From: Luteitalea sp.
GTDB taxonomy: Bacteria; Acidobacteriota; Vicinamibacteria; Vicinamibacterales; CAVVIG01
Direction: 5' to 3'
Assembly: GCA_009380045.1 (NCBI GenBank)
Contig: WHSN01000025.1
Location: forward strand, 1-32,913
Length of the DNA stretch: 32,913 nucleotides
A program made the position numbers and the translations under genes. Shown one piece after another: positions 461 through 27,322 of this stretch (positions are counted from its first letter, which is position 1; every line of letters begins with the position of its first letter). The notes beneath the pieces were generated by a model. The model did not search any database. It saw nothing but the letters and a program-made list of their open reading frames with translations, and was not told the origin of the DNA.

Positions 461-1271
461 CGAATCGTCGTGTTCACGGATCCCGACACACTTCGCAACG
501 AACACGCCCCATCATCGCCCCAGCCCGGCGCCGTGCTGAACGGCCTTGCCGATCAAGGTGTCGCCGTGGTGCTGTGGGGGTAACGAAACGCGCGCCGAGC
601 TCGAACTGATCCAACAGGATCTCCACGTGCAGCACCCGTTTATCAGTGAGAACGGCGGTGGCGTGTTCCTCCCGTCCGCGTATTTTCCAGTGGTTCCCTC
701 AGGCGCGCGGCGCGTCGCCGGCTACGATGTGCTCGAGTTCGGGAAGCCGTATCACCTCCTGACACGAGCCCTTCACGAAGTCGCGAACAAGGCCGGGATC
801 GCGGTGCTCGGCTTCAGTGACATGTCCGTCCCAGAGGTCGCCGACGACTGTCAGCTGTCGCTTGCACAGGCCCGACTAGCCAAGTTACGGGAGTACGACG
901 AGCCGTTCCGCCTCGTTGAGCCCAAGCCCCCCGTGCAAAGTCGCCTCTTCACGGCATTCCGCCGAGTGGGTCTGCGTTGCTTCACGCACGGACGGTACCA
1001 CTATTTGACGAGCGTCACAGACAAAACTGAGAGCATTCGAACGTTGACGTCGCTGTACAGACAAACGTCGGAACGCGTCCTGACGATTGGCTTGGCGGGG
1101 GATTCCAGCGACATCGGCCTCCTTCAGGCCTTCGACATTCCCCTCGTGGTGCAGAACGGCGCCGTGGACGTCGCCCAGCTAATGCGCAAGGTGCCCTCCG
1201 CAAGGTTCACCAGTATGCGTGGCTCGCAGAGCTGGAGCGAAGCGATTCGGGGTGTCGTAAACGCAGAATAG
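461..1271 (+). pseudogene. Mannosyl-3-phosphoglycerate phosphatase-like HAD protein, frameshifted
   Basis: Family members remove the phosphate from mannosyl- or glucosyl-3-phosphoglycerate, the last step in making the compatible solutes mannosyl- or glucosylglycerate. The C-terminal part (about 230 residues) is open from 546 to 1271. It shows the family blocks NETRAELELIQQDL, HPFISENGGGVFLP and GLAGDSSDIGLLQAFDIP, the last being the HAD motif with the Mg-binding aspartate. It lacks the N-terminal nucleophile motif. That piece is found in another frame: from 461 the +2 frame reads RIVVFTDPDTLRNEHA, an aberrant version of the usual FTDLDGTL with the glycine lost, and runs into TAA at 581. One extra base in the G-run at 575-580 would join the two frames. 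The frameshift together with the damaged motif I argues for a dead gene. A TTG start at 546 would give a product without the catalytic aspartate. Confidence 0.75.
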
Positions 1272-5339: not shown

Positions 5340-5912
5340 TTACGTGTCCGGTGAGGCGGCTGCCGACGGAGTCAACACCGAGGCGGCATAGCCGTGTTCG
5401 GCCACGATCGCCGCGCGCTGGCGGTAGAAGTCGGGATCGCGCGGCGTCCAGGTGGCCAGCCCGTCGACGTAGCGGTTGCACAGACAGAAGAAAGCGGCGA
5501 TGAGGACCGTGTCGTGAATCTCGAGATCGGTCGCGCCGTGCGCGCGGGCGCGCTCGACGTCGGCCGCGGTGACCTGTTTCCCGCCTTCCGCGGTCTTGCC
5601 GGCAATCACGAGCAGCGACTTGAGCTTGTCCGAGATGGCGGCGTGCTCGAAGTCGCGTTTCACCTGCGCGACGAGATCTTCGTTGCGGCTCAGGTGGTGC
5701 GCGGCGATTGCTCCGTGGATGGTCTGGCAGTACTCGCAATCGTTGCGCGCCGACACGTGGGTCGCGATCAACTCCCGTTCACCAGGCGTGAGCGGATGCG
5801 GGCCACGCAACAGGATGTCGACGAGCTCGTTGAGCGGCCTGGCCGTCTCGGGCCGGAACGCCATCGGACCCCGGATTCCAGGAAGGCCGTCGGGCAATGC
5901 AATGTGCGCCAT
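5340..5912 (-). CDS. AhpD-like / carboxymuconolactone decarboxylase family peroxidase-related protein
   Basis: This 190-residue protein has the all-helical AhpD-like fold. The redox motif is plain: NDCEYCQTIHG, that is CxxC followed by a histidine four residues on. In AhpD these residues reduce peroxide or a partner peroxidase. The later block ATDLEIHDTVLIAAFFCLCNRYVDGLAT is shared almost word for word with the gene at 6525-7067 and is typical of the peroxidase-related subgroup. There is no signal peptide, so it is probably cytoplasmic. It is the last gene of a three-gene run, 14 bases after the stop of 5927-6544. Only a weak ribosome binding site is visible, which suggests translation coupled to the gene before it. 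The substrate is unknown. Confidence 0.85.
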   Translation of the reverse strand: MAHIALPDGLPGIRGPMAFRPETARPLNELVDILLRGPHPLTPGERELIATHVSARNDCEYCQTIHGAIAAHHLSRNEDLVAQVKRDFEHAAISDKLKSLLVIAGKTAEGGKQVTAADVERARAHGATDLEIHDTVLIAAFFCLCNRYVDGLATWTPRDPDFYRQRAAIVAEHGYAASVLTPSAAASPDT

Positions 5913-5926
5913 TGGAGTCTTTCGGA

Positions 5927-6544
5927 CTATTCGCGGAGGTATCCGCGCGCGGCCAGCGATCGGCCCTGTTCGCGGTGCGCCTGCCCGGTCATCTCGGGAA
6001 CCCCGGTCCCCGCAATCCAGCGGTTGTAGAAGTTGAACAGGGCATAGGTCGTGATCGCGTAGTAGATCGCCTCATCGTCCCAGCTCGCGGACTGCAGAGC
6101 GGTGACGTCGCCGGCATGCAGGAAGGACGGGTTCTTCGTCACCTTCGCCGTGAACCGCAGCAGCAGCTTTTCTTTCTCTTCGAGCGGTGACTGCTCCAGA
6201 TCCTGGAGCACCTGTGACACGAGCGCCTCGTCTCCAAGGAGCTCGGCCGCCGCCGCGGCGTGCGCCCGGGTGCAAAACCCGCATTCGTTCTGGTGAGAGG
6301 TGTAGGCGGCGATCAGTTCACGGAGCCCGGGGCTGATCGTGGTTGGCTGACGAAGAACGCCTTGCGTGAACCGCGCCAGGTGGATGGTGAAGTCCTGCTG
6401 GAAGGCGAACAGGTCCCAGATTTTCGAGTACTCGTCGTTCTGGCTCTTCGCGGTGTCGATGAGCGCCCGGTACGCGCCCGGTTTCGGGTCCGCTTCGACG
6501 CCGGGGAGATAGAGCGCTCCGACGCTAGGGGTTCGGCGGGACAT
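5927..6544 (-). CDS. AhpD-like / carboxymuconolactone decarboxylase family protein, second of three
   Basis: A 205-residue AhpD-fold protein with the redox motif NECGFCTRAHAAAA (CxxC, then His). It is more distant from the two flanking copies: it has a longer N-terminal helical part (IWDLFAFQQDFTIHLARF) and ends with YYAITTYALFNFYNRWIAGTG instead of the IHDTVLIAA block. The start overlaps the end of the preceding gene by 20 bases, so the two are translationally coupled. There is no signal peptide. Having two unlike members of one redox family in a single transcript suggests paired subunits or different partners. The reaction (peroxide reduction versus gamma-carboxymuconolactone-type decarboxylation) cannot be decided; the CxxC favours redox activity. 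Confidence 0.85.
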   Translation of the reverse strand: MSRRTPSVGALYLPGVEADPKPGAYRALIDTAKSQNDEYSKIWDLFAFQQDFTIHLARFTQGVLRQPTTISPGLRELIAAYTSHQNECGFCTRAHAAAAAELLGDEALVSQVLQDLEQSPLEEKEKLLLRFTAKVTKNPSFLHAGDVTALQSASWDDEAIYYAITTYALFNFYNRWIAGTGVPEMTGQAHREQGRSLAARGYLRE

Positions 6545-7067
6545 AACCCTGCTTGGCCATTCGCTGTCCCATCAGGTCGTAGGCGTCATGACCGGTTGGC
6601 GTCCAGGTGGCGAGACCGTCAACGTAACGGTTGTACATGCAGAACGCCGCGGCGATGAGCACGGTATCGTGGATCTCGAGGTCGGTGGCGCCGTCGGCCC
6701 GCGCCCGCGCCACGTCTTCGCTCGTCACCTGCTTGCCGCCCTGGCGCACCTTCTCGGCGATGCTCAGGAGCGACCGCAGCTTGTGAGAGATCGGCGCGGT
6801 GCGCGGATCGCGCCTCACCGCGTCCACGAGAGCGTAGTCGCCTTCGAGGTGGTGGGCGGCGGCAGCCCGGTGGCTGTCGCGGCAGAAATGGCAATCGTTC
6901 GCGGACGAGACGGACATGGCGATCATCTCCCGTTCGCCGCTCGTGAGCGTGTTCGGCCCGCGGAGCAGAACCTCAGCCAGCGCTCGGAGCGGCCCGGCGG
7001 TCTCGGGCCGATAGGCAAAGCCACTGGTGATTCCGGGAAGACCCTCGGGTAGACAGATGTGTGGAAT
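6525..7067 (-). CDS. AhpD-like peroxidase-related protein, first of three, probable ATT start
   Basis: The frame holds the redox motif NDCHFCRDSHRAAA and the block DLEIHDTVLIAAAFCMYNRYV, close to the gene at 5340-5912. The first ATG (6926) would drop 47 residues that are clearly homologous to that gene's N-terminus: PHICLPEGLPGITSGFAYRP here against AHIALPDGLPGIRGPMAFRP there. The frame stays open upstream only to a TAG a few codons further on, and no ATG, GTG or TTG lies in between. An ATT at 7065-7067 sits exactly where the homologue has its ATG, 6 bases after GGAGG. I therefore place the start at ATT, giving 180 residues. Alternatives are a recent ATG-to-ATT change that cuts expression, or a sequencing error. 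Confidence 0.78.
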   Translation of the reverse strand: MPHICLPEGLPGITSGFAYRPETAGPLRALAEVLLRGPNTLTSGEREMIAMSVSSANDCHFCRDSHRAAAAHHLEGDYALVDAVRRDPRTAPISHKLRSLLSIAEKVRQGGKQVTSEDVARARADGATDLEIHDTVLIAAAFCMYNRYVDGLATWTPTGHDAYDLMGQRMAKQGYVPPNP

Positions 7068-13736: not shown

Positions 13737-16100
13737 TCACAACCGGAACAGCCTGGTAATCTTGACCACCAGCGCCCGGTTCGCGAGCTCGGGGAACCGG
13801 GCGCCCAGCGTGTCACGCTGCTCGTCGAAGACGACGAACAGCTCGCTGCCGGGCTGGTATTCCCAGCGAAGTCGCACGTTGACGCCGACCGCGTGACTTG
13901 CGGAGTTGTACTGCAGCAGCGCGCTGGCGAACATGAGCGGCGTCATCGTGTGGGTGACGCGGGAGCCGAGGAGATGGGTCACGAACGCCCCCTCGACGAG
14001 CTTGACGCGATTCAATGAATAGGTCGGCTCGATCGACAGCTGCGGCGACAGGTTCATGCGCCCCTGGGTGAGGGTGAACGCGGTCTTGTGGCCGTTGTAG
14101 AACGTGCCGTGCTCCGCCGCGACGTTGCCCGAGATCCGGCGCTGGCGGCCGAAGTCGACGCCGACGCGGCCCGTGGCGAACTCGTACTCCCCGCTCGGGA
14201 GCGTGACGCCAGACCCGATGCCGAACGGCGCCGGTAGAAACTCGAAGGTGCGCGAATACGCGACCTCGAAACGATCGCTGCTCTGGAATTCGGCGGCGAA
14301 CTCGCCATCCCAGCTCCGGGTTTCGAGCTGGCCGGCGCCATTCTCAACGTAGTTGAGCGTGCCGGTGTAGAAGAACTTCCGGACCGCCTTGATCGCTTCT
14401 GGCCGCGGACTGAACCGAAACTGGCCGAAGCTGCGCCGCATGTCGTCGCGCCGTACGAATCCCACCTCCGGGTTGAAGTCATCGCCGACGATGAGGCGCT
14501 CTGCCTGGACGCCGTACCGATCGCCGTTGTAGTCGAGCTGAGCGCGATAGCTGGTGTCGTCGCCCGACAGTCCGTCGGTGTGCGTCCGCGCCCAGTAGGT
14601 GTTGATGGTCAACATGTCGGACAGGACGAAGGCGGCGTCGGCGCCGTAGGCCTGGTTCGTGCCGGCGCCGCTCGCGCCGACCGATCGGGCGGTCGCGAGC
14701 ACACCGACGCTGCTCCTGCGCAAGATGTCGCCCTTCAGCCGGAGCACCGAAAAATTGGTGGCGCGCGCGGCCGAGTCGTCGTCTTCGCCCGACTGGACGT
14801 TCAGCACACCGAGCGCGAACCGGCCGACGCGTCCGGTCAACCGCCCCCCGGCGACGATCGGTATCGGCCGGCCCCTGTCAAGGCCAATCCGACGGCTGTA
14901 GAACAACATCGGCGTGTCGGTCACCATGTTCGGCATTCCACTGGTGACACCGCCAAAAGTGAACGTCCCCTGATTCTCGAGAAAGAAATCGCGCTTCTCA
15001 GGGAACGACAGATTGAACCGCGTGAGGTTGACCTGTTGCTCGTCCGCCTCGACCTGCGCGAAGTCGGTGTTGTAGGTCAGATCGGCTGTCAGGCCCTGCG
15101 TGATTCCATATTTCAGGTCGACGCCGACGTCGGCGCCGAGCGCGTTGAGGACCGGCGGCGTTGCCAGCCGATCGCTCGTCATGTTGGCGTTGGCGAACGG
15201 CTTCATCTCGAGGTTCCTGGTTTGCGCCGGCGCTTCCAACCCGGTGACCGTTGCCGCGAGCGACGCCCTGAAGTGCCCTGCGCGGCCGTGCACCGCCGCA
15301 ATCGGGGTCAGATAGGAGACCTCGTTCTTCCACCGGTTGACACGCCGTGCGTTGAAGCCCCAGATCTGCGCGCGCCCGGGCCGGAAGCGCAGCGACTTGA
15401 ACGGCAGCGCGGCTTCCACGACCCAGCCGCCCTCGAACCGTCCAACCTTGACGTCCCACACCGGATTCCAGTCGCGATTCAGTTGCCGTTCGTTGGTGAC
15501 CTGGCCGTCGAGGCGCCCGCCGACCGGCGTGACTTCGAAGATGACGCCGTTCCGGCGATCGTAGAACGTGTCGAACATCCAGGCGAAGTTGTCGTTCTGC
15601 GGGACGTTGGCGCCGTCGCGGCGCATCTCGTTCGCGACCAGGCGCTCCGGCCGGCTCTCCCAGCAGCGCGCGGTGACGATCACGCTGTCGCCGTCAAAGA
15701 AGATCCAGACCTCGGTTTTCTCCGTCGCGGGAGCGCCCTCGGACGGGTCGTTCTGGATGAAGTCCGAGATCGACGGCACGGTTGCGTAGACGGCTTCGTC
15801 CAGCTGGCCGTCAATCTGAATCGGCGTCGTCAGCCGCACCGCGCGAATCGTCACCCGCCCCGATTCATCTCGCGCGACCACGGCCGGAGGCAGCGGCGCC
15901 GCCGGGCCGTCGAACGTGAAGGGAGCCCCGGCGGAGGCCGGCGCCGCCGCATCTGGTGCACGGAGGAGCGGCCCGGTCTGACCGGCGCCTGCGGCGCGGG
16001 CGACCACGAGCAGGCAGACGATCGCGTACCCACAGGATTGCAAGATTGCAAAATAGCGGGACAAGGGGATAGCGGAAAGGCAGCGAGCCAGGCGACCCAT
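13737..16100 (-). CDS. DUF5916 outer-membrane protein with N-terminal CBM9-like domain
   Basis: A 787-residue protein. After a signal-like N-terminus comes a CBM9-like sandwich: IRAVRLTTPIQIDGQLDEAVY, then FIQNDPSEGAPATEKTEVWI, then NDNFAWMFDTFYDRRNG. The DUF5916 part follows, with VEAALPFKSLRFRPG and FNARRVNRWKNEVSYLTPI, and then a long beta-rich barrel-like part (FSFPEKRDFFLENQGTF region and many alternating strands) ending LVVKITRLFRL. Proteins of this type are common near TonB receptors and metalloproteases in Acidobacteria and Bacteroidetes. They are thought to sit in the outer membrane; the ligand is unknown. The start at 16100 is uncertain: the signal peptide is preceded by about 25 extra residues and the region holds inverted repeats. 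Confidence 0.87.
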   Translation of the reverse strand: MGRLARCLSAIPLSRYFAILQSCGYAIVCLLVVARAAGAGQTGPLLRAPDAAAPASAGAPFTFDGPAAPLPPAVVARDESGRVTIRAVRLTTPIQIDGQLDEAVYATVPSISDFIQNDPSEGAPATEKTEVWIFFDGDSVIVTARCWESRPERLVANEMRRDGANVPQNDNFAWMFDTFYDRRNGVIFEVTPVGGRLDGQVTNERQLNRDWNPVWDVKVGRFEGGWVVEAALPFKSLRFRPGRAQIWGFNARRVNRWKNEVSYLTPIAAVHGRAGHFRASLAATVTGLEAPAQTRNLEMKPFANANMTSDRLATPPVLNALGADVGVDLKYGITQGLTADLTYNTDFAQVEADEQQVNLTRFNLSFPEKRDFFLENQGTFTFGGVTSGMPNMVTDTPMLFYSRRIGLDRGRPIPIVAGGRLTGRVGRFALGVLNVQSGEDDDSAARATNFSVLRLKGDILRRSSVGVLATARSVGASGAGTNQAYGADAAFVLSDMLTINTYWARTHTDGLSGDDTSYRAQLDYNGDRYGVQAERLIVGDDFNPEVGFVRRDDMRRSFGQFRFSPRPEAIKAVRKFFYTGTLNYVENGAGQLETRSWDGEFAAEFQSSDRFEVAYSRTFEFLPAPFGIGSGVTLPSGEYEFATGRVGVDFGRQRRISGNVAAEHGTFYNGHKTAFTLTQGRMNLSPQLSIEPTYSLNRVKLVEGAFVTHLLGSRVTHTMTPLMFASALLQYNSASHAVGVNVRLRWEYQPGSELFVVFDEQRDTLGARFPELANRALVVKITRLFRL

Positions 16101-16148: not shown

Positions 16149-16526
16149 TCAGAACGTCAACTGGCCGCTGATCTGGAAGAGGCGTGGATCCAGAATCCCG
16201 GTCGGCGTCAAGTAGCTCGGGCCGTAAGTGAAGTTGAGCGTTTGAATGGCGCTCGATTTCAGGGCGTTGTAGGCGTCGAGGTTTGCCTGCAGCCGAAGCC
16301 TGGTGGTGAGCTGGAACACTTTCGTCAACCGCAGGTCGAGGCGCCGGATTCGGCCCTCGAACTCCGTATTCGCCACCAGCAAGGGCACGTTGATCGTCCT
16401 GGCGCCGCCTGCCAGCGGCCGGCCCACGGACAACACGGCATCGCTGGCCTCCTGGCCGGATGCGGAGGACGCCGCCAACCTGCACACGACAAACAGACCG
16501 CAGACCAAAGGAAGGCGGCGAAGCAT
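16149..16526 (-). pseudogene. TonB-receptor gene with a large in-frame internal deletion
   Basis: A 125-residue frame that joins the two ends of a TonB-dependent receptor. Residues 1-28 are a signal peptide nearly identical to that of 20203-23274 (MLRRLPLVCGLFVVCRLAAS here, MLRRLHVVCGLFVVCTLAAS there) and include QEAS. The sequence then jumps straight to the last roughly 95 residues of a receptor: VGRPLAGGARTINVPLL, then LDLRLTKVFQLTTRLRLQAN, and ends LFQISGQLTF. About 900 codons of regulatory, plug and barrel sequence are missing, yet the frame is kept. Start, signal peptide, promoter and barrel end are all intact, so a small exported product with about four barrel strands could still be made. 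Deletion relic is the simplest reading. Confidence 0.85.
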
Positions 16527-16573: not shown

Positions 16574-16602
16574 AAACTAGCATCCGCTACCGCCTCTGTC
16601 AA
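16574..16602 (-). promoter_or_regulatory. Promoter of the deleted TonB-receptor unit
   Basis: Minus strand: TTGACA (16597-16602), a 17-base spacer ending TGC, then TAGTTT (16574-16579). The surrounding CAATTGACAGAG is identical in all three minus-strand receptor units, and TGCTAG at the -10 is shared with the unit at 19922. The start codon at 16526 lies about 40 bases downstream. Confidence 0.65.
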
Positions 16603-16660
16603 TTGCCAAACATTGCCAAACACCACCAACGGTGAGGAAGGCGCTGCACATCAACGCTTG

Positions 16661-16687
16661 CAGCGGTGGTATTCATCCGATTGGATC
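16661..16687 (-). promoter_or_regulatory. Shared 27-bp upstream element, copy 1
   Basis: This aligns without gaps to 19991-20017 and 23396-23422; 17 of 27 columns are identical in all three. On the plus strand the pattern is C(A/C)GCGG, four variable bases ending in T, one variable base, TTCA, then G(A/T)TTGGAT. It lies 58 bases upstream of the -35 box of its gene. Probable activator or repressor site. Confidence 0.5.
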
Positions 16688-16748
16688 TTCAAAGCGTCAG
16701 AGCGTCGTAGACACGTCTTCATCACGAGGTCGCGAAAAAAGCCACGAG

Positions 16749-16776
16749 GAACGTCTGGGACGTTCCCGAGATGTTC
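16749..16776 (-). terminator. Hairpin after TonB receptor 16816-19875
   Basis: Arms GAACGTCT (16749-16756) and AGATGTTC (16769-16776) pair over 8 bp with one G-U, with an inner self-complementary GGGACGTTCCC. It lies 40 bases after the stop. The paralogue at 20203 has an equivalent hairpin at the same distance. Confidence 0.6.
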
Positions 16777-16815
16777 TTCGTGCCTCTTCATGTGCCGTCG
16801 CGGCTTCGCGTGAAA

Positions 16816-19800
16816 TTAAAAACTCAGCTGGCCGCTAATCTGGAGGATGCGCGGGTCGAGAATCGTGGTCGGCGTCAGCCAGTTGGGTCCAAACGTCGTC
16901 TGGACCGTCTGGACGGCGCTGGAGTTCAGCGCGTTGTAGGCGTCGAGGTTCGCCTGCAGGCGCACTCGACTGGTCAGCTGAAAGATCTTCGTCAGCCGGA
17001 GATCGAGCCGCCGGGTCCGCCCTTCGAACACCGTCTGCGGGAGGACGAGCGGCACGTTGACGGTCCGGGCTCCACCGGCGAGGTTGCGGCCGAGCGACGA
17101 TGCCACTTCGGCGGTGGTCGCGGCGTAGACCGCCTCGATCGCGGGGCCCGACATATCCTGGTAAACGCCGCTCACGACGAAGCCTGCGCGCAGCGGAATG
17201 GTTCCATTCACCTTGAGCTGTGTCTGGGCCTTGAAGGGCGTGATGACCCGGCACGTCTGCCTGCCGTCGATCGTCGTGTCTGTCTGCGGCCCGAAGACGC
17301 CTACCGAGTAGCTGGTCAGACCCGGAGCATCGACGGCGAAACACTGGTCTTTCACCGACCGTCCGGTATCGAAGCCGCCTCCCACCCGGATGCCGTTGCC
17401 GAACCGCGCATTCAGGCCAACGCCCATGAAGTGGTTGACGCGCGTGTCGGTGCCGTACGTCGAGGCGGACTCCACCAGGTTCTGCACCTGGCCGAACCTC
17501 TCGGGCTTGATGGCGGACAAGCCGCACACCTGATAGCCCCCGCCGCCAGGCAGCCGTGGATCGCTGGGTGCCATGATGCAGAAGGTATCGTGGTCGGCTG
17601 GTCCGACCGCCAGGTTGTTGGTCACGCGCTGCTTGCTGTCCGTGTTCCGGTAGTAGCCGCCCGTATTGCGGTAATAGCCCGCTGTCAGCGACAGTCCCTG
17701 TGTGAGCTCGTGCTGCACTTCCCCCGAGAGCTCCCAGTTGTAATCCCGCACGCCCCAGCCGTCGCGCACCTCGTCGGCCCAGCTCGTGGCCGCCGGGTTG
17801 TTGCGGCCGAAGTTCTGATTGTCGAGCGCCCCGCATTCGCCGTTCGCGGCGAAATCACCCAGGTCGCAGTCAGGCACATAGTTTCCGTTGCCGTCCACCC
17901 ACGATCGGCCGGCGTTGTTGACCGACGTCGTGATCGGGTTGAGCTGATTGGCCACGTCCACGTTCGTCTTGGCCACGTATCGGCCCAGTGCGACTTTGAG
18001 GGCTGTCCGGCTGTTCCCGAACAGGTCATATGACGCGCCCAGTCGCGGATTCGCGTCCTTCCACGACGGCACTCCGTTCACCTTCTCGAAGTGGCGCTCT
18101 CCCACCCATGGATTGGATCGCAATGCGCCGGGGAACCTGTCGTCGAACTTCGGATCCGGGGTGCCGGGCAGATCTTGCACCGGCACGTAGCCGTTCAAGA
18201 AGTCGAACCGCAGGCCGTATGTGAGCGTCAGGCGGTTGAAGCGCCACTGATCCTGGGCATAGAGCCCGAGCTCGTGGGCGCCCTCCTGTTCCAGATACGG
18301 CGTCGCCCGCTGGGTGAGGCTGATCGGGACGCCATTCCGGAACGTGTAGCCGACGTTGCCGTTCGCGAAGATGAAGTTGTCGGTGAACAGCTCCTCCCGC
18401 TGAACGCCGGTCTTGAAGGTGTGTGCTCCGGTGACGTAGGTCATCGAAAACCGCTGCGTGAAGCGGTTCGTGTAATCGGGATGGCCGCGGTAGGTGCTGC
18501 TGGCGCCGTAGCTGAGACCAAGCCCGACGTCGGTAATCGGCACGGTGCCTGCCTGCACGCCAGGCGACCAGAACTGATTCCACTGCGAGATCGACGCGCC
18601 GACGCCCGCTTCGAGCAGGAGCCGGCTTGTCATCGGGGCGTTCCACGTCGCCTGCATGAACCGGTTGGGCTCGAATCGATACTGCCCGATATACGCCTCC
18701 TGCGAGGTATTGGCATTGATCGCCCCGCAGTTGCAGGCCGTCTGGTTGTCGATGAAGAAGTTGATCTTGTTCTTCGGCGTGGCCTGCCACGTCAGTCGGC
18801 CGACGGTCGAGTCGTACCATTCCCACCGGCCACTGAGCCGGTCGAGTGGCCGATCGACCCATGGGGTCCAGCGCACCACCTCCCGTTCCGCGCCGGGCGG
18901 CGTCAACAGCTCGTTTTGCGTCTTGTTCCAGTAGACGCCGGCAAACTGCCGCGCCATCCCCCACGTCCGGAACGCGCCGAAAAACCACAGCGTGTCCTGC
19001 TTGATCGGCCCTCCGACACTCACCGACTGGTCGAAGATCTTGACCGTCTTGTTGGCTGTCTGCAGCCCGCGGGCGCGCAGCTCATCGCTCAGGTTTTCGC
19101 TCTCCAGCGTGTCGTTGGAGAAGACGCCGTTCAGGATGGTCCTGAACGTGTTGCCCCCCTCCTTGGGCACAACGTTCATCACCGGGCCATCGGCGTTCAC
19201 CTCGGCTGAGATGCCGCTCGTCTGCAGCACCATCTCCTCGACGGCCGCGGCGTTGATCTGGTAGCTGCTGTTGCCGGAACTGTTCTCGACGCCCATGCCG
19301 TCGAACGACACCTTGGTGCCCCGCTTGCCGTGATAGCTGCCGGGCTCCGACTGATAGCGGCCGCCAACGTCGGTGACGCCGGTGAACCCCGCGGTGAGCG
19401 TCACCAGGGTGTTGACATGCTTGGTGCTGGTGGGCAGCGTGTCGAGCAGTTCGCGGTTCGCCACGATCTGCTTCCGGACGTTCTGCGTATCGACGAGCGG
19501 CGCCGCGCCGCTCACGGTGATGGTTTCCTCGAGCGACCCGACGCGCAGGTCCCCATTCACGGTCGCGGTGAATCTGGTCGGCAGCTCGATCCCTTCCCGT
19601 CTGACGGTGCTGAAGCCGGGCAGCGTGAAGGTGACCGTGTAGACGCCCGGCCGTAAGTCGATGATGCTGTAACGGCCCTCGCCGTCGGTGATGGCGGTTC
19701 GGACCTTCTCGATCAGCACCGGGCTGGCGGCTTCCACCGTCACGCCAGGGAGCACCGCGCCCGATGGGTCCCTTGCGACCCCGGCGATTCCGCTGGCCTC

Positions 19801-19875
19801 CTGCGCGAATCCGGGAGACGCAGCCAGCGCGCAGACCGCGACGACGCCGAGAACCAGGTGACGTCGATGAGCCAT
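16816..19875 (-). CDS. TonB-dependent receptor, Oar-like (second full-length copy)
   Basis: A 1019-residue receptor, paralogous over its whole length to 1760-4843 and 20203-23274. The signal peptide ends near GFA|QE (residue 24). The regulatory sandwich (SGIAGVARDPSGAVLPGVTV) is followed by plug blocks including VEEMVLQTSGISAEVNADGP and then the barrel, which ends RILQISGQLSF. Outer-loop cysteines are conserved: ACNCGA, VDGNGNYVPDCDLGDFAANG with EC following, YQVCGL and DQCFAVD. AGGAGG lies 8 bases before ATG 19875, which decides that start. The longer frame to 19923 would begin inside the -10 box, so it is not transcribed. It has its own promoter (19922-19951), upstream element and terminator, so it is a single-gene unit. 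Confidence 0.93.
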   Translation of the reverse strand: MAHRRHLVLGVVAVCALAASPGFAQEASGIAGVARDPSGAVLPGVTVEAASPVLIEKVRTAITDGEGRYSIIDLRPGVYTVTFTLPGFSTVRREGIELPTRFTATVNGDLRVGSLEETITVSGAAPLVDTQNVRKQIVANRELLDTLPTSTKHVNTLVTLTAGFTGVTDVGGRYQSEPGSYHGKRGTKVSFDGMGVENSSGNSSYQINAAAVEEMVLQTSGISAEVNADGPVMNVVPKEGGNTFRTILNGVFSNDTLESENLSDELRARGLQTANKTVKIFDQSVSVGGPIKQDTLWFFGAFRTWGMARQFAGVYWNKTQNELLTPPGAEREVVRWTPWVDRPLDRLSGRWEWYDSTVGRLTWQATPKNKINFFIDNQTACNCGAINANTSQEAYIGQYRFEPNRFMQATWNAPMTSRLLLEAGVGASISQWNQFWSPGVQAGTVPITDVGLGLSYGASSTYRGHPDYTNRFTQRFSMTYVTGAHTFKTGVQREELFTDNFIFANGNVGYTFRNGVPISLTQRATPYLEQEGAHELGLYAQDQWRFNRLTLTYGLRFDFLNGYVPVQDLPGTPDPKFDDRFPGALRSNPWVGERHFEKVNGVPSWKDANPRLGASYDLFGNSRTALKVALGRYVAKTNVDVANQLNPITTSVNNAGRSWVDGNGNYVPDCDLGDFAANGECGALDNQNFGRNNPAATSWADEVRDGWGVRDYNWELSGEVQHELTQGLSLTAGYYRNTGGYYRNTDSKQRVTNNLAVGPADHDTFCIMAPSDPRLPGGGGYQVCGLSAIKPERFGQVQNLVESASTYGTDTRVNHFMGVGLNARFGNGIRVGGGFDTGRSVKDQCFAVDAPGLTSYSVGVFGPQTDTTIDGRQTCRVITPFKAQTQLKVNGTIPLRAGFVVSGVYQDMSGPAIEAVYAATTAEVASSLGRNLAGGARTVNVPLVLPQTVFEGRTRRLDLRLTKIFQLTSRVRLQANLDAYNALNSSAVQTVQTTFGPNWLTPTTILDPRILQISGQLSF

Positions 19876-19921
19876 CTCGATTACCTCCTGAAAAGAAGAA
19901 GGTGAGGACTCCGCCCGGCGC

Positions 19922-19951
19922 ACGCTAGCATCCGGCTGCGATCTCTGTCAA
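19922..19951 (-). promoter_or_regulatory. Promoter of TonB receptor 16816-19875
   Basis: Minus strand: TTGACA (19946-19951), an 18-base spacer, TAGCGT (19922-19927), embedded in the shared CAATTGACAGAG and TGCTAG sequences. The ATG at 19875 lies about 40 bases downstream, with AGGAGG between. Confidence 0.65.
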
Positions 19952-19990
19952 TTGCCAACCGCCGAAAAACATACGAAATGTGCCGCTGGG

Positions 19991-20017
19991 CCGCGGCGAT
20001 GTTCACACGATTGGATT
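19991..20017 (-). promoter_or_regulatory. Shared 27-bp upstream element, copy 2
   Basis: This is the ungapped counterpart of 16661-16687 and 23396-23422. It lies 39 bases upstream of the -35 box. The rest of the 250-base gap to the next gene (20018-20202) holds no reading frame I would support, only CACGAGG- and GACGGAG-type short repeats and the terminator of the next receptor. Confidence 0.5.
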
Positions 20018-20137
20018 TGCCACGGGCGACGTGAAGACGGGTTGCAAAGCGGGTTGATCACGAGGCGGGTCGATCACGAGGTCACCAAGGGGCGACGGAG
20101 GGCGACGGAGCGCGGGAGGTGCGACGAAGGACGACGA

Positions 20138-20166
20138 AGAACATCTGGGCGATCCCTTGATGTTCT
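20138..20166 (-). terminator. Hairpin after TonB receptor 20203-23274
   Basis: Perfect 8-bp arms AGAACATC and GATGTTCT (20138-20145 and 20159-20166) with inner GGG/CCC pairing. It begins 37 bases after the stop. Shape and position match the hairpin at 16749-16776 although the loop sequence differs. Confidence 0.6.
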
Positions 20167-20202
20167 CCGTCCTCTTCGTGTGCGATCGCGGCTCGTGCTG
20201 AC

Positions 20203-23200
20203 CTAGAAAGTCAGCTGACCGCTGAACTGGAGGATGCGCGGGTCCAGAATCTGGGTCGGATTCAGCCAACTCGCTCCGTAGGTCGTGTTGATGTTCTGAA
20301 TCGCACTGGAGTTCAGCGCGTTGTACGCGTCGAGGTTCGCCTGCAGGCGGATCCGGCTGGTCAGCTGAAAGTACTTGGTCACGCGCAGGTCGAGACGCCT
20401 GATCCGGCCCTCGTACATCGAGTTCGGCATGACGAGTGGGACGATGACCGTGCGGGCGCCGCCGGCGAGGTTCCGCCCGAGCGACTCTACGACGTCGCCG
20501 GTCGGCGCCGCGTAGCGGGCGTCGACCGCGGGTCCGGCCTGGTCCTGGAACACGCCACTGACGACGAAGCCCATCGGCAGCGGGACGCTTCCGTTCATCT
20601 TCAGCATCGCCAGCCCCTTGATCGGGGTGACCACGCGACAAGTCCGCTCTCCGTCAATCGTCGTCTCCGTCTGTGGCCCCCAGGAACCCCCGGTGGTGCC
20701 GGAGATGGAGTACGTGGCGAGCCCGGGCGAATCGACGACGAAGCACTGGTCCTTGGTCGAGCGTCCGGCGTCGAAGCCGCCGCCGATCCGGATGCCCCCG
20801 GCCAGTCGCGCGTTCAGCCCGACACCGAAGAAATGGTTGCGCCGGACGTCCTTGCCGAATTTGGTCGAGGACTCCACCACTTCCTGCGACTGGCCGAACT
20901 TTTCCGGCTTGACGTTCGACAGACCGCAGATCGGATAGCCGCCACCGCCAGGCAGACGCGAATCGGTTGGCGCCGTCACACAGAAGCTGTCGAAATCCTG
21001 TGGTCCCACCGCCAGGTTGTCGGTCACGCGTTGTGCGCTGTCCGTGTTGCGGTAGTACCCGCCGGTGTTGAAGTAGTAGCCGCCGGTCAGCGACAGGCCG
21101 CGGGTGAGCTCGTGCTGGATCTCGGACCCGAACTCCCAGTTGTTGTCCCGCACTCCCCAGCCTTCGCGCACGTCGTCGGTCCAGCGGAGGGCGTTCGGGT
21201 TGCTCTGACCGAAGTTCTGGTTGTCGAGCGCCCCGCACTCGCCGTTCGCGCCGAGACTTCCCAGATCGCAGTCGGGCACATAGTTCTGGTTGACGTCGTT
21301 CCACGAGCGGTTGGCCGTGTTGACCGTGGTGGTGATCGGGTTGAGCAGCACCGCCACGTCGACGTTGGTTTTGGCCACGTAGCGCCCCAGTGACGTTTTG
21401 AGCGCGGTCCGGCCGTCGCCGAAGAGGTCGTAGGCTACGCCCAATCGAGGATTCAGGTCGAGCCATCGCGGGATGCCGTTGACCGCCGCGAACTTCCGCT
21501 CGCCCACCCATGGATTGATGAGCGGGACCCCCGGGAACCGATCGAAGAACTTCTCGTCCGGCGTGCCGGGCGTGTCCTGGGCCGGTACGTAGCCGTTGAC
21601 GTAGTCGAACCGCAACCCGTAGTTGAACGTGAACCGCCCGTATTTCCACTGGTCCTGGGCGAAGATGCCGAGATCGTCGGTGCGATCGAGCTCCAGATAC
21701 GGCGTCGTGCGCTGGAGCAGGCTGATCGGGACCCCGTTGCGAAACGTGTATTGCACGTTGCCGTTCGCGAGGAAATAGTTGTCCGTGACCAGGTGTTCGC
21801 GCTGGAACCCGACCTTCATCGTGTGCGAGCCGGTGACGTAGGTCATCGCCGCCCGCACCATGTAGCGGTTGGTGTAATCCGGGTGGCCGCGGTAGGTAGC
21901 CGACGCGCCGTAGGTGAGACCGAGCCCGACATCGGTGATGCTGGCGGTCCGCGCCTGCACGCCCGGCTGCCAGAACGCATTCCACTGCGAAATCGACGCC
22001 CCCACCCCCGCTTCGAGCAGGAGACGGCTCGTCAGCGGTGAGTTGTACGTGCCCTGCATGAACCGGTTCGGCTCGAACCGGTACCCGCCGCCCGCCTCTT
22101 GCATGGTGGTGGAAGCGGTCGACCCGCAGTTGCACGCGTGCTGATTGTCGCTGATGAAGTTGAACTTGTGCTTCGGCGTCGCCTGCCACGTCAACCGCCC
22201 GAGCAGGGTGTCGTACCATTCCCACCGGCTGCTGAGCCGGTCCAGCGGGCGATCGACCCACGGGGTCAGCCGCACCACTTCAACTTCAGCACCGGGCGGC
22301 GTCAGCAGCTCGTTCTGGGTCTTGTTCCAGTAGACACCGGCGAACTGCCGCGCCATCCCCCACGTGCGGGCCGCCCCAAAAAACCAGAGCTTGTCCTTTT
22401 TGATCGGTCCGCCGAGGCTGAACGCCTCGTCGAAGATCTTCACGGTCTTGTTCGCGTTTTGTAACCCGCGCGCGCGCAGCTCGTCGGTCAGGTTCTCGCT
22501 CTCCAGCTTGTCGTTCGTGAATAGCGCGTTCGCGATTCCCCGGAAGGTGTTGCCGCCTTCCTTCGGCACCACGTTCATCACCGGACCGTCGGCATTGACT
22601 TCGGCGGAGATTCCGCTCGTCTGCAGCACCATCTCCTCGACGACCGCCGCGTTCACCTGGTAGCTGCTGTTGCCGGCGCTGTTCTCGATGCCCATGCCGT
22701 CGAAATACACCTTGGTGCCGCGCTTGCCATGGTAGGCGCCGGCTTCGGCGAAGTATCGGCCGCCGACATCGGTGACGCCGGTGAAGCCCGGGGTGAGGGT
22801 GACCAGGGTGTTGACGTGCTTCGTGCTGGTGGGCAAGGAGTCGAGCAAGTCGCGGTTCGCCACGGTCTGTCTGCGGACATTCGTCGTGTCGACCAGCGGC
22901 GCCGCGCCGCTGACGGTGATGGTCTCTTCGAGCGACCCGACGCGGAGATCGCCGTTCACGGTGGCGGTGAATCCGGTCGGCAGGTCGATCCCTTCCCGCC
23001 TGACCGTGCTGAAGCCAGGCAAGGTGAAGGTGACGGTGTAGACGCCCGGCCGTAAGTCGACGATGCTGTAACGACCCTCGCCGTCGGTGATGGCGGTGCG
23101 GACCTTTTCAATCAGCACCGGGCTGGCCGCCTCGACGGTGACTCCCGGGAGCACAGCACCGGACGGGTCCCTCGCGACCCCGGCAATCCCGCTGGCCTCT

Positions 23201-23274
23201 TGCGCGGATGCGGCGGACGCCGCCAACGTGCACACCACAAACAGACCGCAGACAACGTGAAGTCGCCGGAGCAT
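20203..23274 (-). CDS. TonB-dependent receptor, Oar-like (third full-length copy)
   Basis: A 1023-residue receptor with signal peptide MLRRLHVVCGLFVVCTLAAS, cleaved near ASA|QE, then the regulatory sandwich, plug and barrel as in its paralogues, ending RILQFSGQLTF. The loop cysteines are again present: ACNCGS, NQNYVPDCDLGSLGANGEC, YPICGL and DQCFVVD. GAGG lies 8 bases before ATG 23274 but only 2 before ATG 23280, so 23274 is chosen; the frame to 23328 would start upstream of the transcription start. The signal peptide is nearly the same as that of the deleted copy at 16149-16526, so those two are probably the closest relatives. It is divergent from the CRTAC1-like gene. Confidence 0.93.
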   Translation of the reverse strand: MLRRLHVVCGLFVVCTLAASAASAQEASGIAGVARDPSGAVLPGVTVEAASPVLIEKVRTAITDGEGRYSIVDLRPGVYTVTFTLPGFSTVRREGIDLPTGFTATVNGDLRVGSLEETITVSGAAPLVDTTNVRRQTVANRDLLDSLPTSTKHVNTLVTLTPGFTGVTDVGGRYFAEAGAYHGKRGTKVYFDGMGIENSAGNSSYQVNAAVVEEMVLQTSGISAEVNADGPVMNVVPKEGGNTFRGIANALFTNDKLESENLTDELRARGLQNANKTVKIFDEAFSLGGPIKKDKLWFFGAARTWGMARQFAGVYWNKTQNELLTPPGAEVEVVRLTPWVDRPLDRLSSRWEWYDTLLGRLTWQATPKHKFNFISDNQHACNCGSTASTTMQEAGGGYRFEPNRFMQGTYNSPLTSRLLLEAGVGASISQWNAFWQPGVQARTASITDVGLGLTYGASATYRGHPDYTNRYMVRAAMTYVTGSHTMKVGFQREHLVTDNYFLANGNVQYTFRNGVPISLLQRTTPYLELDRTDDLGIFAQDQWKYGRFTFNYGLRFDYVNGYVPAQDTPGTPDEKFFDRFPGVPLINPWVGERKFAAVNGIPRWLDLNPRLGVAYDLFGDGRTALKTSLGRYVAKTNVDVAVLLNPITTTVNTANRSWNDVNQNYVPDCDLGSLGANGECGALDNQNFGQSNPNALRWTDDVREGWGVRDNNWEFGSEIQHELTRGLSLTGGYYFNTGGYYRNTDSAQRVTDNLAVGPQDFDSFCVTAPTDSRLPGGGGYPICGLSNVKPEKFGQSQEVVESSTKFGKDVRRNHFFGVGLNARLAGGIRIGGGFDAGRSTKDQCFVVDSPGLATYSISGTTGGSWGPQTETTIDGERTCRVVTPIKGLAMLKMNGSVPLPMGFVVSGVFQDQAGPAVDARYAAPTGDVVESLGRNLAGGARTVIVPLVMPNSMYEGRIRRLDLRVTKYFQLTSRIRLQANLDAYNALNSSAIQNINTTYGASWLNPTQILDPRILQFSGQLTF

Positions 23275-23318
23275 ACTCATCACCTCGTCGGGAAGGCAAA
23301 AGATCCCAAATCGAACGG

Positions 23319-23347
23319 ACCCTAACACCTGGTATCACCTCTGTCAA
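23319..23347 (-). promoter_or_regulatory. Promoter of TonB receptor 20203-23274
   Basis: Minus strand: TTGACA (23342-23347), a 17-base spacer, TAGGGT (23319-23324), within the shared CAATTGACAGAG. The start codon at 23274 lies about 40 bases downstream. Confidence 0.65.
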
Positions 23348-23683
23348 TTGAGAATTCGCCCAGAAGGTGCCGAAATCTCGCACGTGGACGCTTTCCAGCG
23401 GCACTCTTCATCAGTTTGGATCCGTTGGCTCGATCCTGATGAAAAGGTCATCACCGTGCAGACATTTCGTCAGTGTCGATCAGGGCGTGCGTTGCGCCGC
23501 CGGCGACGTGGCCGGTCACGCGAACGAACCCGTCGGTGTGCCTCTAAAGTCGGTATGCCTCAGAAACGAACCGCCGGGTGCCTCAGAAGAAGAAGACTGG
23601 ACTCGTGCGGCCCACGGGTGCAGGCACGGTCGCCGTGTGCCTCGATCGCGAAAAGTGATAACAATAGTGGGCAGCGTTACGTA
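23348..23683. other. 336-base divergent intergenic region
   Basis: This region lies between receptor 20203-23274 and the CRTAC1-like gene. It holds the third shared upstream element (23396-23422), which here is part of an imperfect hairpin: TTCATCA and GGATC (from 23407) pair with GATCC and TGATGAA (to 23443). Four TGCCTC motifs occur between 23530 and 23645 (in TGTGCCTCTA, TATGCCTCAG, GGTGCCTCAG and TGTGCCTCGA). No convincing gene: the open frame here is the upstream extension of the CRTAC1-like frame and lacks protein character. Confidence 0.5.
23396..23422 (-). promoter_or_regulatory. Shared 27-bp upstream element, copy 3
   Basis: This is the ungapped counterpart of 16661-16687 and 19991-20017. 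It lies 48 bases upstream of the -35 box. The three distances (39, 48, 58) differ by about one helical turn each, as expected if a bound protein must face the polymerase. Confidence 0.5.
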
Positions 23684-25513
23684 ATGAGCATTTTCCCCGT
23701 CGCAGTACAGTCGGCTACCCGGCTGCTGGCCCCGGTTCTCGTTGCCGTCGCAACCCTCACCGGCTGTGCCGGCGAGCCTCAAGAAGCCAGCCCTGATCCG
23801 CCACCGGCGTCCGCGGCCTCCTCGAGCGCCGTGGCAGCCGCTTCTGCGGGCGGGCCGGAGGATTGGTTCCTCGAGCGGGCCGAGGCCGTCGGACTCCGCT
23901 TCGTACATTTCAACGGCATGTCCGGGCAGTTCTATTTTCCTGAGACGATCCCGGCCGGTGTTGCGTTGTTCGACTACGACAACGACGGCGACCTGGATGT
24001 GTACCTGGTGCAGGGGCAGATGCTCGGCGAAGGGAAGACGCTCAGCCAGGCGCTGTTCCAGCCGGTCGGTCCGCTGCCGCCGAGGGGCCGGCTCTTTCGC
24101 AACGACCTGGATGTCCGCTCCGACGGGACCCGCACGCTGAATTTCACCGACGTGACCGACGCCAGCGGGATCGACGCCCGCGGATATGGCATGGGGGCGG
24201 CAACGGGGGACATCGACAACGACGGCTGCATCGACCTTTACCTGACGAACCTCGGCGTCAACCAGCTGTTTCAGAACCGCTGCGACGGCACGTTCACCGA
24301 CGTGTCGAAACCGAGCGGCACCGACCGTTCGGGTTGGGGCGTGTCCGCGTCGTTTGTGGACTACGACCGCGATGGCTGGCTGGATCTGTACGTCGGTAAC
24401 TACGTGCAGTACGACTTGGGGACCGACAAGCCGTGCACGAACCTGACCGGGAAGCGCGACTACTGTACGCCGGCCGTCTACCAGGCACAGCCGGACACGC
24501 TGTATCACAACGATCGCAACGGCAGGTTCACGGATGTGACGGCGAAGGCTCTGTCCGAGCCGTTCGGCCCGGCGCTCGGCGTCGTGAGCGCCGACTTCAA
24601 CAACGACGGCTGGCCCGACATCTTCGTCGGGAACGACACGGCGCCAAACCTGTTGTGGATCAACCAGCGCGATGGCACGTTCAAGAACACCGGGCTGATC
24701 TCGGGCGCCGCGGTGAGCTCGACCGGCAAGCCGGAGGCGAGCATGGGAGTTGACGCCGGCGATTACGACAATGACGGCGATGACGACCTGGTCGTCACGG
24801 TTCTCCCGGCGGAGGGGAGTAACCTGTTCGTCAACGACGGGACCGGGCTGTTCGAGGACCTGAGCGCGACCTCGCAGCTCGGCCCTGGCAGTCTCGGGTA
24901 CAGCGGCTTCGGCACGGCCTGGATCGACTTCGACAATGACGGCTGGCTCGACATCCTGACCGTGAATGGCGCGATTCAGGCCATTGAAGGTCGCGGGGAC
25001 GATCCCTTTCCGTACGCCGAGCGCAAGCTCCTGTTCCGCAATCGCGGCGACGGCCGGTTCGCGGACGTCACGAGCGAGGCCGGTGCCGCCTTCGCGGGGG
25101 CGGACGTGGGTCGCGGCGCGGCGTTCGGCGACATCGACAACGATGGGGACACCGACGTCCTCGTCGGCAATCTGAACGGTCCCGTCCGGCTCCTGCTCAA
25201 CAACATCGGCCACCGCAACCACAGCGTGTGTCTCAGGCTCGTGGGCGAGCGGCGAACGCCGGCCGCGGAAGGGCGTGACATGTTGGGGGCGCGGATCGAA
25301 GTGATTCGGGAGGGCAGGCCGACGCTCGTGCGCCGGGCGAGAACCGACGGGAGCTACGCCTCGGCCAACGACCCACGCGTGCTCGTCGGGCTCGGCGAGT
25401 CGACCGACCTGCCCACTATCCGCGTACGCTGGCCGGACGGGCGTGTTCAGCAGTGGCCGCGGGTCGCCATCGATCGGTGCACGACGCTCGAACAGGGCCC
25501 GGGCGCCCGGTGA
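23684..25513 (+). CDS. CRTAC1-like lipoprotein with FG-GAP/VCBS repeats and ASPIC/UnbV domain
   Basis: A 609-residue lipoprotein: lipobox LTGC after a hydrophobic stretch, then an alanine- and serine-rich linker. Seven calcium-binding FG-GAP/VCBS-type repeats follow, each with a D-x-(D/N)-x-D-G core: DYDNDGDLDVYL, DIDNDGCIDLYL, DYDRDGWLDLYV, DFNNDGWPDIFV, DYDNDGDDDLVV, DFDNDGWLDILT and DIDNDGDTDVLV. This predicts a seven-bladed propeller. The C-terminus (GARIEVIREG onward, with IRVRWPDGRVQ) is the ASPIC/UnbV domain. Such proteins probably act at the cell surface in binding or adhesion; function is unproven. ATG 23684 is chosen for the signal peptide; the ribosome binding site is weak. The TPR gene follows 168 bases later, a pairing commonly seen for this family. 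Confidence 0.9.
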   Translation: MSIFPVAVQSATRLLAPVLVAVATLTGCAGEPQEASPDPPPASAASSSAVAAASAGGPEDWFLERAEAVGLRFVHFNGMSGQFYFPETIPAGVALFDYDNDGDLDVYLVQGQMLGEGKTLSQALFQPVGPLPPRGRLFRNDLDVRSDGTRTLNFTDVTDASGIDARGYGMGAATGDIDNDGCIDLYLTNLGVNQLFQNRCDGTFTDVSKPSGTDRSGWGVSASFVDYDRDGWLDLYVGNYVQYDLGTDKPCTNLTGKRDYCTPAVYQAQPDTLYHNDRNGRFTDVTAKALSEPFGPALGVVSADFNNDGWPDIFVGNDTAPNLLWINQRDGTFKNTGLISGAAVSSTGKPEASMGVDAGDYDNDGDDDLVVTVLPAEGSNLFVNDGTGLFEDLSATSQLGPGSLGYSGFGTAWIDFDNDGWLDILTVNGAIQAIEGRGDDPFPYAERKLLFRNRGDGRFADVTSEAGAAFAGADVGRGAAFGDIDNDGDTDVLVGNLNGPVRLLLNNIGHRNHSVCLRLVGERRTPAAEGRDMLGARIEVIREGRPTLVRRARTDGSYASANDPRVLVGLGESTDLPTIRVRWPDGRVQQWPRVAIDRCTTLEQGPGAR

Positions 25514-25541
25514 CAGAAGCGACGCGAAGGAGCGCGCAGGC

Positions 25542-25579
25542 GATGAGTGACCGATGAGTGACCAATGAGTGACCGATGA
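25542..25579 (+). repeat. 11-bp tandem repeat, three copies and a partial fourth
   Basis: GATGAGTGACC occurs at 25542-25552 and 25553-25563, AATGAGTGACC at 25564-25574, followed by GATGATGAC. It lies in the 168-base gap between the CRTAC1-like and TPR genes, which otherwise holds only short GTGTCG/CGACAC inverted arms near 25585-25610. Confidence 0.8.
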
Positions 25580-25681
25580 TGACGTAGTGTCGTGGCCCCG
25601 CCTCGCGACACGCGTCCTCGTTGAGGTTTCTGCGAGCTCGGCGGCGATCATTGTGACCCGCCGTTGCTGGATCTCCACGCG

Positions 25682-27322
25682 ATGATGAAGAGTGGACTAG
25701 TGACCGGGATTGGAGCGGTTTGCGTGTCGGCCGCGCTGGCTGGTGCGTGCCGGTCCGGTGACCAGGCAGCACCATCGGTTTCGGGGGGCCGCGTGACGCT
25801 GAAGCCGCCAGTGGGGCGGGAGCTGCGAGAGGTGTCATTGCCAGACGTCTCGCAGATGGAGGCGTCGGTGCGGACGCAGGTGCTGGAACGCGCCGCGTCG
25901 GTGAGGTCGGCGATCGACTCCGCCGGCGCCCGGCCGTCCGAGCTCGCCTTTGCCTACGGAGAGTTGGGCAAGCTGCTGATGGCCGCCGAGCAGGTGGAGG
26001 CGGCCGAAAGCTGCTACTTGAATGCAGCGGTGCTCGCTCCGGAGGATCGGCGCTGGCCCTACTATCTCGGCCACCTGTACAGAATCAGAGGGCCGCTGCC
26101 GAAATCGGCGGCCGCGTTCGAACGGGCGCTGCAGCTGCAGCCGAACGACGTCGCCACGATCGTCTGGCTCGGCGAGGTGTATCTCGCCCAGGGCCGGGCG
26201 GAAGAGGCCGACTCGACGTTCGCGAAGGCCCTGACGATCGAGGCTGGGTCGGTGCCTGCGCACTTCGGCGCCGGCCGTGCGGCGCTGGAGAGAAAGGACT
26301 ACGCGCGCGCGGCCAAGCACCTGGAGCAGGCCCTCGCCGCCAGCCCCCACGCGACGGCCGCCCACTACCCGCTCGCCATGGCCTATCGCGGCTTGCGGGA
26401 TCTGACGAAGGCGGAAGCCCACCTGCGGCAGCGGGGCGACATCCAGATCCACCCGGCCGATCCGCTGATGAGAGACCTGGACGAGCTGCTGCAGAGTCCA
26501 AAGGCGTACGACATGCGAGGAGGTCGCGCCCTCGAGACCGGCGACTTCGCCGGCGCCGCAGACTACTTTCGCAAGGGGCTGGCCCTGGAGCCTGGCAACG
26601 CGTCGCTGCGGCTCCGTCTCGGGACCGCGTTGTTTCAGATGGGAGATGCGGGCGGCGCGCTGGAGCAGTTCGAACAGGTGGTGCAAACCTCGCCGCAGTA
26701 CGCGCGCGGTCACTACAGCCTTGCCGTCCTCCTCGCCGCGAGTGGCCGGCGTCAGGAAGCGATCGACCGGTTCCGAGCGGCGGTCAAGTACGAGCCGTGG
26801 TATGTCCAGGCACGCGTCGGGCTGGCCGGTTCCTTGAGAGAGAGCGGACGGCTGGGAGAGGCGCTGGCCGAGTACGAAGCGGCGCGCCGCATGAATCCGA
26901 GCTCCGCCGGGGCGGCGCTCGGTTACGCGATGACGCTTGTGCGCCTGGAGCGGTATCAGGAGGCACGGGATATCTTGACCGAGGCGATGGCGCTCAACCC
27001 CGCTGATCCGGTCTTCCCCCACTCGCTGGCTCGCCTGCTCGCGGCTGCGCCCGACTCGCGCATCCGGGATGGCCGCCGGGCGCTGGCGTTGGTCGAGGGC
27101 TTGCTGAAGAGCCAGCAGACGCTGGAGCTGGGCGAAGCCCTCGCGATGTCGCTCGCCGAGCTGGGGCAGTACGAGCAGGCGGTGACCGTGCAGCGTGACG
27201 TGATCGCGGCGGCCGGGAAGGCCGGCCTCGATCACGTGGCGCGCCTCATGGGCGACAACCTCGAGCTGTACCAGCGGCGCGAGCCCTGCCGGACGCCGTG
27301 GCGAAACGGCGAGATGCCTTAG
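25682..27322 (+). CDS. Exported TPR-repeat protein
   Basis: A 546-residue protein with a signal sequence ending in LAGACRSG, a possible though imperfect lipobox. About ten tetratricopeptide repeats fill most of the rest, for example AFAYGELGKLLMAAEQVEAA, KSAAAFERALQLQPND, YARAAKHLEQALAASPHATA, FAGAADYFRKGLALEPGNAS, GGALEQFEQVVQTSPQYARG and YQEARDILTEAMALNPADPV. TPR arrays are scaffolds for protein contacts. Its place behind the ASPIC/UnbV lipoprotein suggests the two form an envelope assembly. ATG 25682 or 25685 is chosen on the signal sequence; a TTG at 25664 would add six residues. The ribosome binding site is weak. Confidence 0.9.
   Translation: MMKSGLVTGIGAVCVSAALAGACRSGDQAAPSVSGGRVTLKPPVGRELREVSLPDVSQMEASVRTQVLERAASVRSAIDSAGARPSELAFAYGELGKLLMAAEQVEAAESCYLNAAVLAPEDRRWPYYLGHLYRIRGPLPKSAAAFERALQLQPNDVATIVWLGEVYLAQGRAEEADSTFAKALTIEAGSVPAHFGAGRAALERKDYARAAKHLEQALAASPHATAAHYPLAMAYRGLRDLTKAEAHLRQRGDIQIHPADPLMRDLDELLQSPKAYDMRGGRALETGDFAGAADYFRKGLALEPGNASLRLRLGTALFQMGDAGGALEQFEQVVQTSPQYARGHYSLAVLLAASGRRQEAIDRFRAAVKYEPWYVQARVGLAGSLRESGRLGEALAEYEAARRMNPSSAGAALGYAMTLVRLERYQEARDILTEAMALNPADPVFPHSLARLLAAAPDSRIRDGRRALALVEGLLKSQQTLELGEALAMSLAELGQYEQAVTVQRDVIAAAGKAGLDHVARLMGDNLELYQRREPCRTPWRNGEMP

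Follow-up and report, generated by a model that had tools for sequence, protein, structure and literature searches.

A 32,913-nucleotide (nt) stretch of the draft genome of Luteitalea sp. (contig WHSN01000025.1, C22 in our numbering; the whole stretch is referred to as the window) carries a tandem array derived from Oar-like outer-membrane receptor genes, in which each unit is preceded by a predicted sigma-70 promoter and, further upstream, by a copy of a 27-base-pair (bp) block. The array lies on the minus strand and runs head to tail from unit C through unit B to unit A, followed by a gene for a DUF5916 protein; C and B encode full-length receptors, and A is a deletion remnant. The explanation that we favor, with a probability of about 0.5 on the basis of sequence comparisons, is that these paralogous genes have in common a local cis-acting site upstream of their own promoters. 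The block was searched for in the rest of the assembly (4.3 Mb in 251 contigs, estimated to be about 90% complete, so that about 10% of the genome may be missing), in 26 other genomes of the family and in the order, which comprises 162 genomes (161 others).

Promoters and the 27-bp upstream block

The sequence CAATTGACAGAG, which forms the -35 part of the promoter, occurs exactly three times in the assembly, at positions 16594-16605, 19943-19954 and 23339-23350, always on the minus strand. The first-pass annotation had reported this identical sequence, with a TAGnnT -10 element, at all three units, and the assembly-wide search confirmed it and found it nowhere else. The complete predicted promoters, all on the minus strand, read TTGACA-N17-TAGTTT for unit A (16574-16602) and TTGACA-N18-TAGCGT for unit B (19922-19951), both with TGC as the extended -10, and TTGACA-N17-TAGGGT for unit C (23319-23347), with TGT. 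All three combine a TTGACA-like -35, a spacer of 16 to 18 nt, TGn, TA at positions 1 and 2 and T at position 6, as expected of extended -10 sigma-70 promoters. They resemble known promoters of this type by the TTGACA hexamer, the spacing of 17 to 18 nt and the TGn, and differ from the standard sigma-70 promoter by a -10 that reads TAGnnT rather than TATAAT. A generic promoter scan lists none of the three because it requires a closer fit to TATAAT. Each of units C, B and A would thus have its own consensus sigma-70 promoter for transcription.

The 27-bp block is found upstream of each full TTGACA-TGnTAGnnT promoter. Counted from TTGACA, copy A (GATCCAATCGGATGAATACCACCGCTG; 16661-16687) is at 58 nt, copy B (AATCCAATCGTGTGAACATCGCCGCGG; 19991-20017) at 39 nt and copy C (GATCCAAACTGATGAAGAGTGCCGCTG; 23396-23422) at 48 nt, all on the minus strand; copy C is located in the intergenic region common with a divergent FG-GAP/UnbV gene. 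An exhaustive ungapped search of the 146 nt upstream of the -35 recovered this very element as the best three-way match, with 17 of 27 columns identical, in agreement with its initial description. The best three-way match in dinucleotide-shuffled sequences was 11 of 27 (n = 60 shuffles only), and chance resemblance of the three copies is excluded. The block may extend to an AGCG a few nt past its right end. No Rfam family matches it, and a known RNA element was rejected.

Pairwise identities within the block amount to 21, 20 and 18 of 27 positions without gaps (67 to 78%), whereas the flanks and spacers are near random and the units differ from one another at approximately 40 to 57% of 4-fold sites. 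The earlier observation that the element is kept while its surroundings diverge therefore holds. Between the block and the -35, A and C remain weakly alignable (shuffle p of 0.008 to 0.03), and the similarity of B and C is not beyond chance (p = 0.12). Three-way identity at 4-fold sites is 24% (9 of 37) in the C-terminal codons that A, B and C share, and 35% over the whole gene for B, C and a further receptor, unit D. With a neutral rate that rests on few such sites, the p value of a 27-column window with 17 matches in 120 neutral columns is 0.0008 at 24% identity, 0.009 at 30% and 0.056 at 35%. The block is thus to some degree better conserved than neutral sequence, with moderate rather than strong evidence for this.

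The distances of 58, 39 and 48 nt had been interpreted as helical spacing. At a period of 10.5 bp they fall within an arc of 2.0 bp (p = 0.11 with uniform phases and 0.15 with random distances of 30 to 65 nt), and at a period of 10.0 bp within an arc of 1.0 bp (p = 0.03 and 0.07, respectively). They are not convincing evidence of helical phasing. In addition, one of the steps has a simple origin: an exact 10-bp tandem duplication (TGTTTGGCAA present twice, TGTTTGGCAATGTTTGGCAA; 16603-16622, minus strand) abuts the -35 of unit A and makes its spacer 10 nt longer than that of unit C. Such a duplication is an ordinary slippage event.

Distribution of the block and of the promoter class

We searched for the block beyond the array, other Oar-like receptor genes of the genome having been proposed as places to look for it. 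At no more than one mismatch, the assembly contains only the three array copies, and the next best site has 2 mismatches. The block is absent upstream of an 80%-identical paralogue on contig C123. The plus-strand paralogue at position 1760 of the window lacks promoter and block alike; that it had no element was noted from the start. The block was not found in the 26 other family genomes, and the search of the order yielded one further one-mismatch match, G109:C230; this match falls within what looks like a long open frame, and no receptor gene was seen downstream of it.

A search of the Luteitalea genome for Oar-like receptors gave 72 matching stretches, and dozens of such receptors are found per genome in this acidobacterial group. 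The motif was detected neither at unlinked receptors of the same genome nor at orthologues in related species. These pattern searches of the genome, family and order led us to reject a genome-wide receptor regulon: the block is confined to one array, and a regulon across the receptor family is not supported. The interpretation in the first-pass annotation thus holds in part: the block is real and occupies a plausible position upstream of good sigma-70 promoters, but it is limited to three tandem units, and a dedicated regulator of a receptor family is not supported. The block does not open up a receptor-wide regulon, which would have made the finding important. Kept in one array and missing from orthologues, it would represent a small case of regulatory turnover in the receptor family.

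The promoter has a wider distribution. The pattern TTGACA-N13-15-TGnTAGnnT has five sites in the genome, all five before receptors of the same family (the three units and those on contigs C123 and C219), and the reversed control gave none; a relaxed pattern has 15 sites, six of them upstream of receptors. In the 26 other family genomes, 4 of 13 sites of the stricter pattern precede receptors, arguing against a receptor-specific promoter, which was rejected. The remaining sites precede unrelated genes, including DksA/TraR-like, ExbB/TolQ-like and transposase genes as judged from translations read by eye. Because it is also used by such genes, the promoter is an ordinary consensus sigma-70 class, often employed by Oar-like receptors and not peculiar to them.

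Short motifs upstream of TonB-dependent receptor genes are known from other bacteria. A putative Fur box, a 19-bp 9-1-9 palindrome, precedes several of these genes in Xanthomonas campestris, and the motif of the Caulobacter xylose regulon, a 20-bp palindrome upstream of TonB-dependent receptor genes, was found in two genera (PMC1790865). The block is similar in that a short motif conserved before several receptor genes suggests common control. Unlike those palindromes, which are located at unlinked genes, it shows no clear palindrome and is restricted to a single tandem array. Our literature search found, within the library covered, no study on the control of acidobacterial Oar-like receptors. 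Divergent paralogue families have been described in another acidobacterial genome, that of Solibacter (PMC3174227).

Origin and possible role of the block

In the protein tree, unit C groups with orthologues of other genera (92/94), the C123 paralogue is outside them, and B is outside all these (94/96). That A, B and C all carry the block thus does not follow the gene tree: either the block is ancestral, with at least two losses, or it spread inside the array by recombination. The -10 sequence of unit C, GTGTTAGGGT, is identical to that of its orthologue in genome G009, and the surroundings of its -35 are identical to those of its array mates. This mixed identity would fit local exchange upstream of the -10.

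According to the explanation that we favor, a putative cis-acting site of approximately 27 to 38 bp, 39 to 58 nt from the -35, would have been copied with the tandem units or homogenized among them through recombination. Mild constraint would then have preserved it as the spacer drifted, with the additional 10 nt of unit A arising from the tandem duplication. A DNA-binding protein or the C-terminal domain of the RNA polymerase alpha subunit would most likely contact this site and modulate the promoters of this one array. The sequences themselves establish the promoter motifs, the block and its restriction to the array, the deletion remnant and the duplication, and from these we infer binding, regulation and co-transcription.

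Several observations weigh against such a site. The block copies do not represent independent evidence, because there are only three and all are paralogous and adjacent. The B-C identity of 18 of 27 is within the null distribution of best pairwise matches (95th percentile, 18), and the p value for the block rises to 0.06 to 0.19 if neutral three-way identity is set at 35 to 40%. We found no convincing dyad in the block; the small hairpins at its right edge, with loops of 3, 6 and 4, are not significant in two of the three copies, and a dyad operator was rejected for that reason. No DNA-binding family was detected among the tested open reading frames of the window, and no regulator was identified for the block. 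Finally, the block is absent upstream of the unit C orthologues in four other genera (G003, G009, G014 and G017; receptor start sites in relatives were taken from the alignment and may be some codons off). In G009, G014 and G017 the comparison is between orthologous intergenic regions, since the matching divergent FG-GAP/UnbV gene is kept there (established by presence of hits only, with no valid identities).

The closest rival, plain shared ancestry or gene conversion, is nearly as likely as a local site. The block would then be a patch of similarity that has survived without any function other than that of the core promoter. The units are adjacent, in the same orientation, and have similar linkers and hairpin-like sequences; the A-C spacer can still be aligned, if weakly; and upstream similarity that departs from the gene tree is expected if array members swapped upstream DNA. 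The significance of the block excess also depends on the assumed neutral rate. What this rival accounts for less readily is a block that is ungapped and 67 to 78% identical between pairs next to near-random flanks and spacers. An extended version of the local site is unlikely in our view. It posits that recombination spread an array-specific operator, absent from orthologues, among the tandem receptors and rewired them to answer to a single regulator, and that one receptor was reduced to a short leader, leaving the DUF5916 protein driven by the same switch.

Two further explanations appear far less probable. A dedicated regulator acting through a helically phased site over a receptor regulon would be in keeping with a block upstream of strong promoters and with distances of 39, 48 and 58 nt, close to 10-bp steps (the 1.0-bp arc at period 10.0). 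However, no other receptor of the genome has the block, nor does any of the 26 family genomes, and the single further match in the order, with one mismatch, is in an apparent coding frame; phase clustering reaches p values of about 0.07 to 0.15, and the duplication explains one step. The genome-wide form of this model is already contradicted, and its local form is what survives as the favored explanation. We also give very little credit to a role of the block other than promoter control of the receptors. It could, for example, control the FG-GAP/UnbV gene at unit C, be left over from the terminator region of the unit before it, or serve the array as a recombination site. The block does lie in a divergent intergenic region at C, in A and B it comes after the terminator region of the unit before, and it lies at the upstream limit of the similarity in which C takes part. 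In contrast, no divergent gene is present at A or B, the block has no Rfam match, and there is no T tract after its small dyad.

The receptor units and their neighbors

The Oar-like N-terminal extension defines a named subclass of TonB-dependent receptors (PMC1790865). Unit C (20203-23274, minus strand) encodes a full-length Oar-like receptor of 1023 amino acids with the signal peptide MLRRLHVVCGLFVVC, a CarboxypepD_reg domain and an outer-membrane beta barrel. Unit B (16816-19875, minus strand), identified by Pfam, encodes a full-length receptor of 1019 amino acids that is 76% identical to C; the two genes are 60% identical at 4-fold sites. Both proteins have the signal peptide, CarboxypepD_reg domain and large barrel of Oar-like receptors. 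The architecture of the Xanthomonas and Myxococcus proteins (PF13620 and PF25183) is found in units B and D, and is assigned to C by full-length homology: both families score above cut-off in protein P0001, to which C is 76% identical over its full length. A TonB-plug family is not among the Pfam hits, and coupling of these receptors to TonB is putative.

Unit A (16149-16526, minus strand), originally counted as a third receptor unit, is instead a 125-residue in-frame deletion remnant. It consists of a signal peptide like that of C, joined in frame near GAGGCCAGCG to the last 97 or so barrel residues; in the protein search, only query residues 1-29 and 927-1023 align with it. Compared with Oar-like receptors, it is missing the N-terminal domain, the plug region and the greater part of the barrel; it has no Pfam hit and does not qualify as an Oar-like receptor by the CarboxypepD_reg domain, plug and barrel expected of one. 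Its signal peptide, promoter and upstream block are intact. In the C-terminal tree its branch of 0.33 is the longest of its close group, which is compatible with relaxed constraint. In a draft genome, the join may also reflect misassembly between repeats. A receptor C-terminal fragment is present on another contig (L108; G000:C144:4808-5182), frameshifted against its upstream part and probably a pseudogene. It was considered as a second mini-receptor like unit A and rejected, as it looks frameshifted and has no matching start.

The DUF5916 gene (13737-16100, minus strand; PF19313, E = 3e-17) begins 48 nt downstream of unit A. Because the gap is this short and the terminator scan, run from position 16000, found no terminator-like site in it, the promoter and block of unit A probably now serve mainly the DUF5916 gene. 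A terminator-like hairpin with a T tract was listed after unit B, between B and A (16747-16767, minus strand), although such sites over the whole window are not above shuffle expectation. A similar hairpin-like sequence also follows unit C, as seen by inspection; the terminator scan did not list it.

On the other side of the array, the divergent neighbor of unit C encodes an FG-GAP repeat/UnbV_ASPIC protein (23684-25513, plus strand) with an ATG at 23684 and a signal-like N terminus, and is followed by a TPR protein gene (25664-27322, plus strand). A receptor paired divergently with FG-GAP/UnbV_ASPIC and TPR genes, as here at 23275-27322, is also found in G014 and G009, and the FG-GAP part in G017. 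This recurrence in other genera suggests that the pairing may be a functional unit.

Elsewhere in the window, positions 546-1271 (plus strand) encode a HAD protein similar to mannosyl-3-phosphoglycerate phosphatase, with NCBIfam scores under the curated cut-off, and carboxymuconolactone decarboxylase domains are present in three neighboring open reading frames at 5340-6926 (minus strand).

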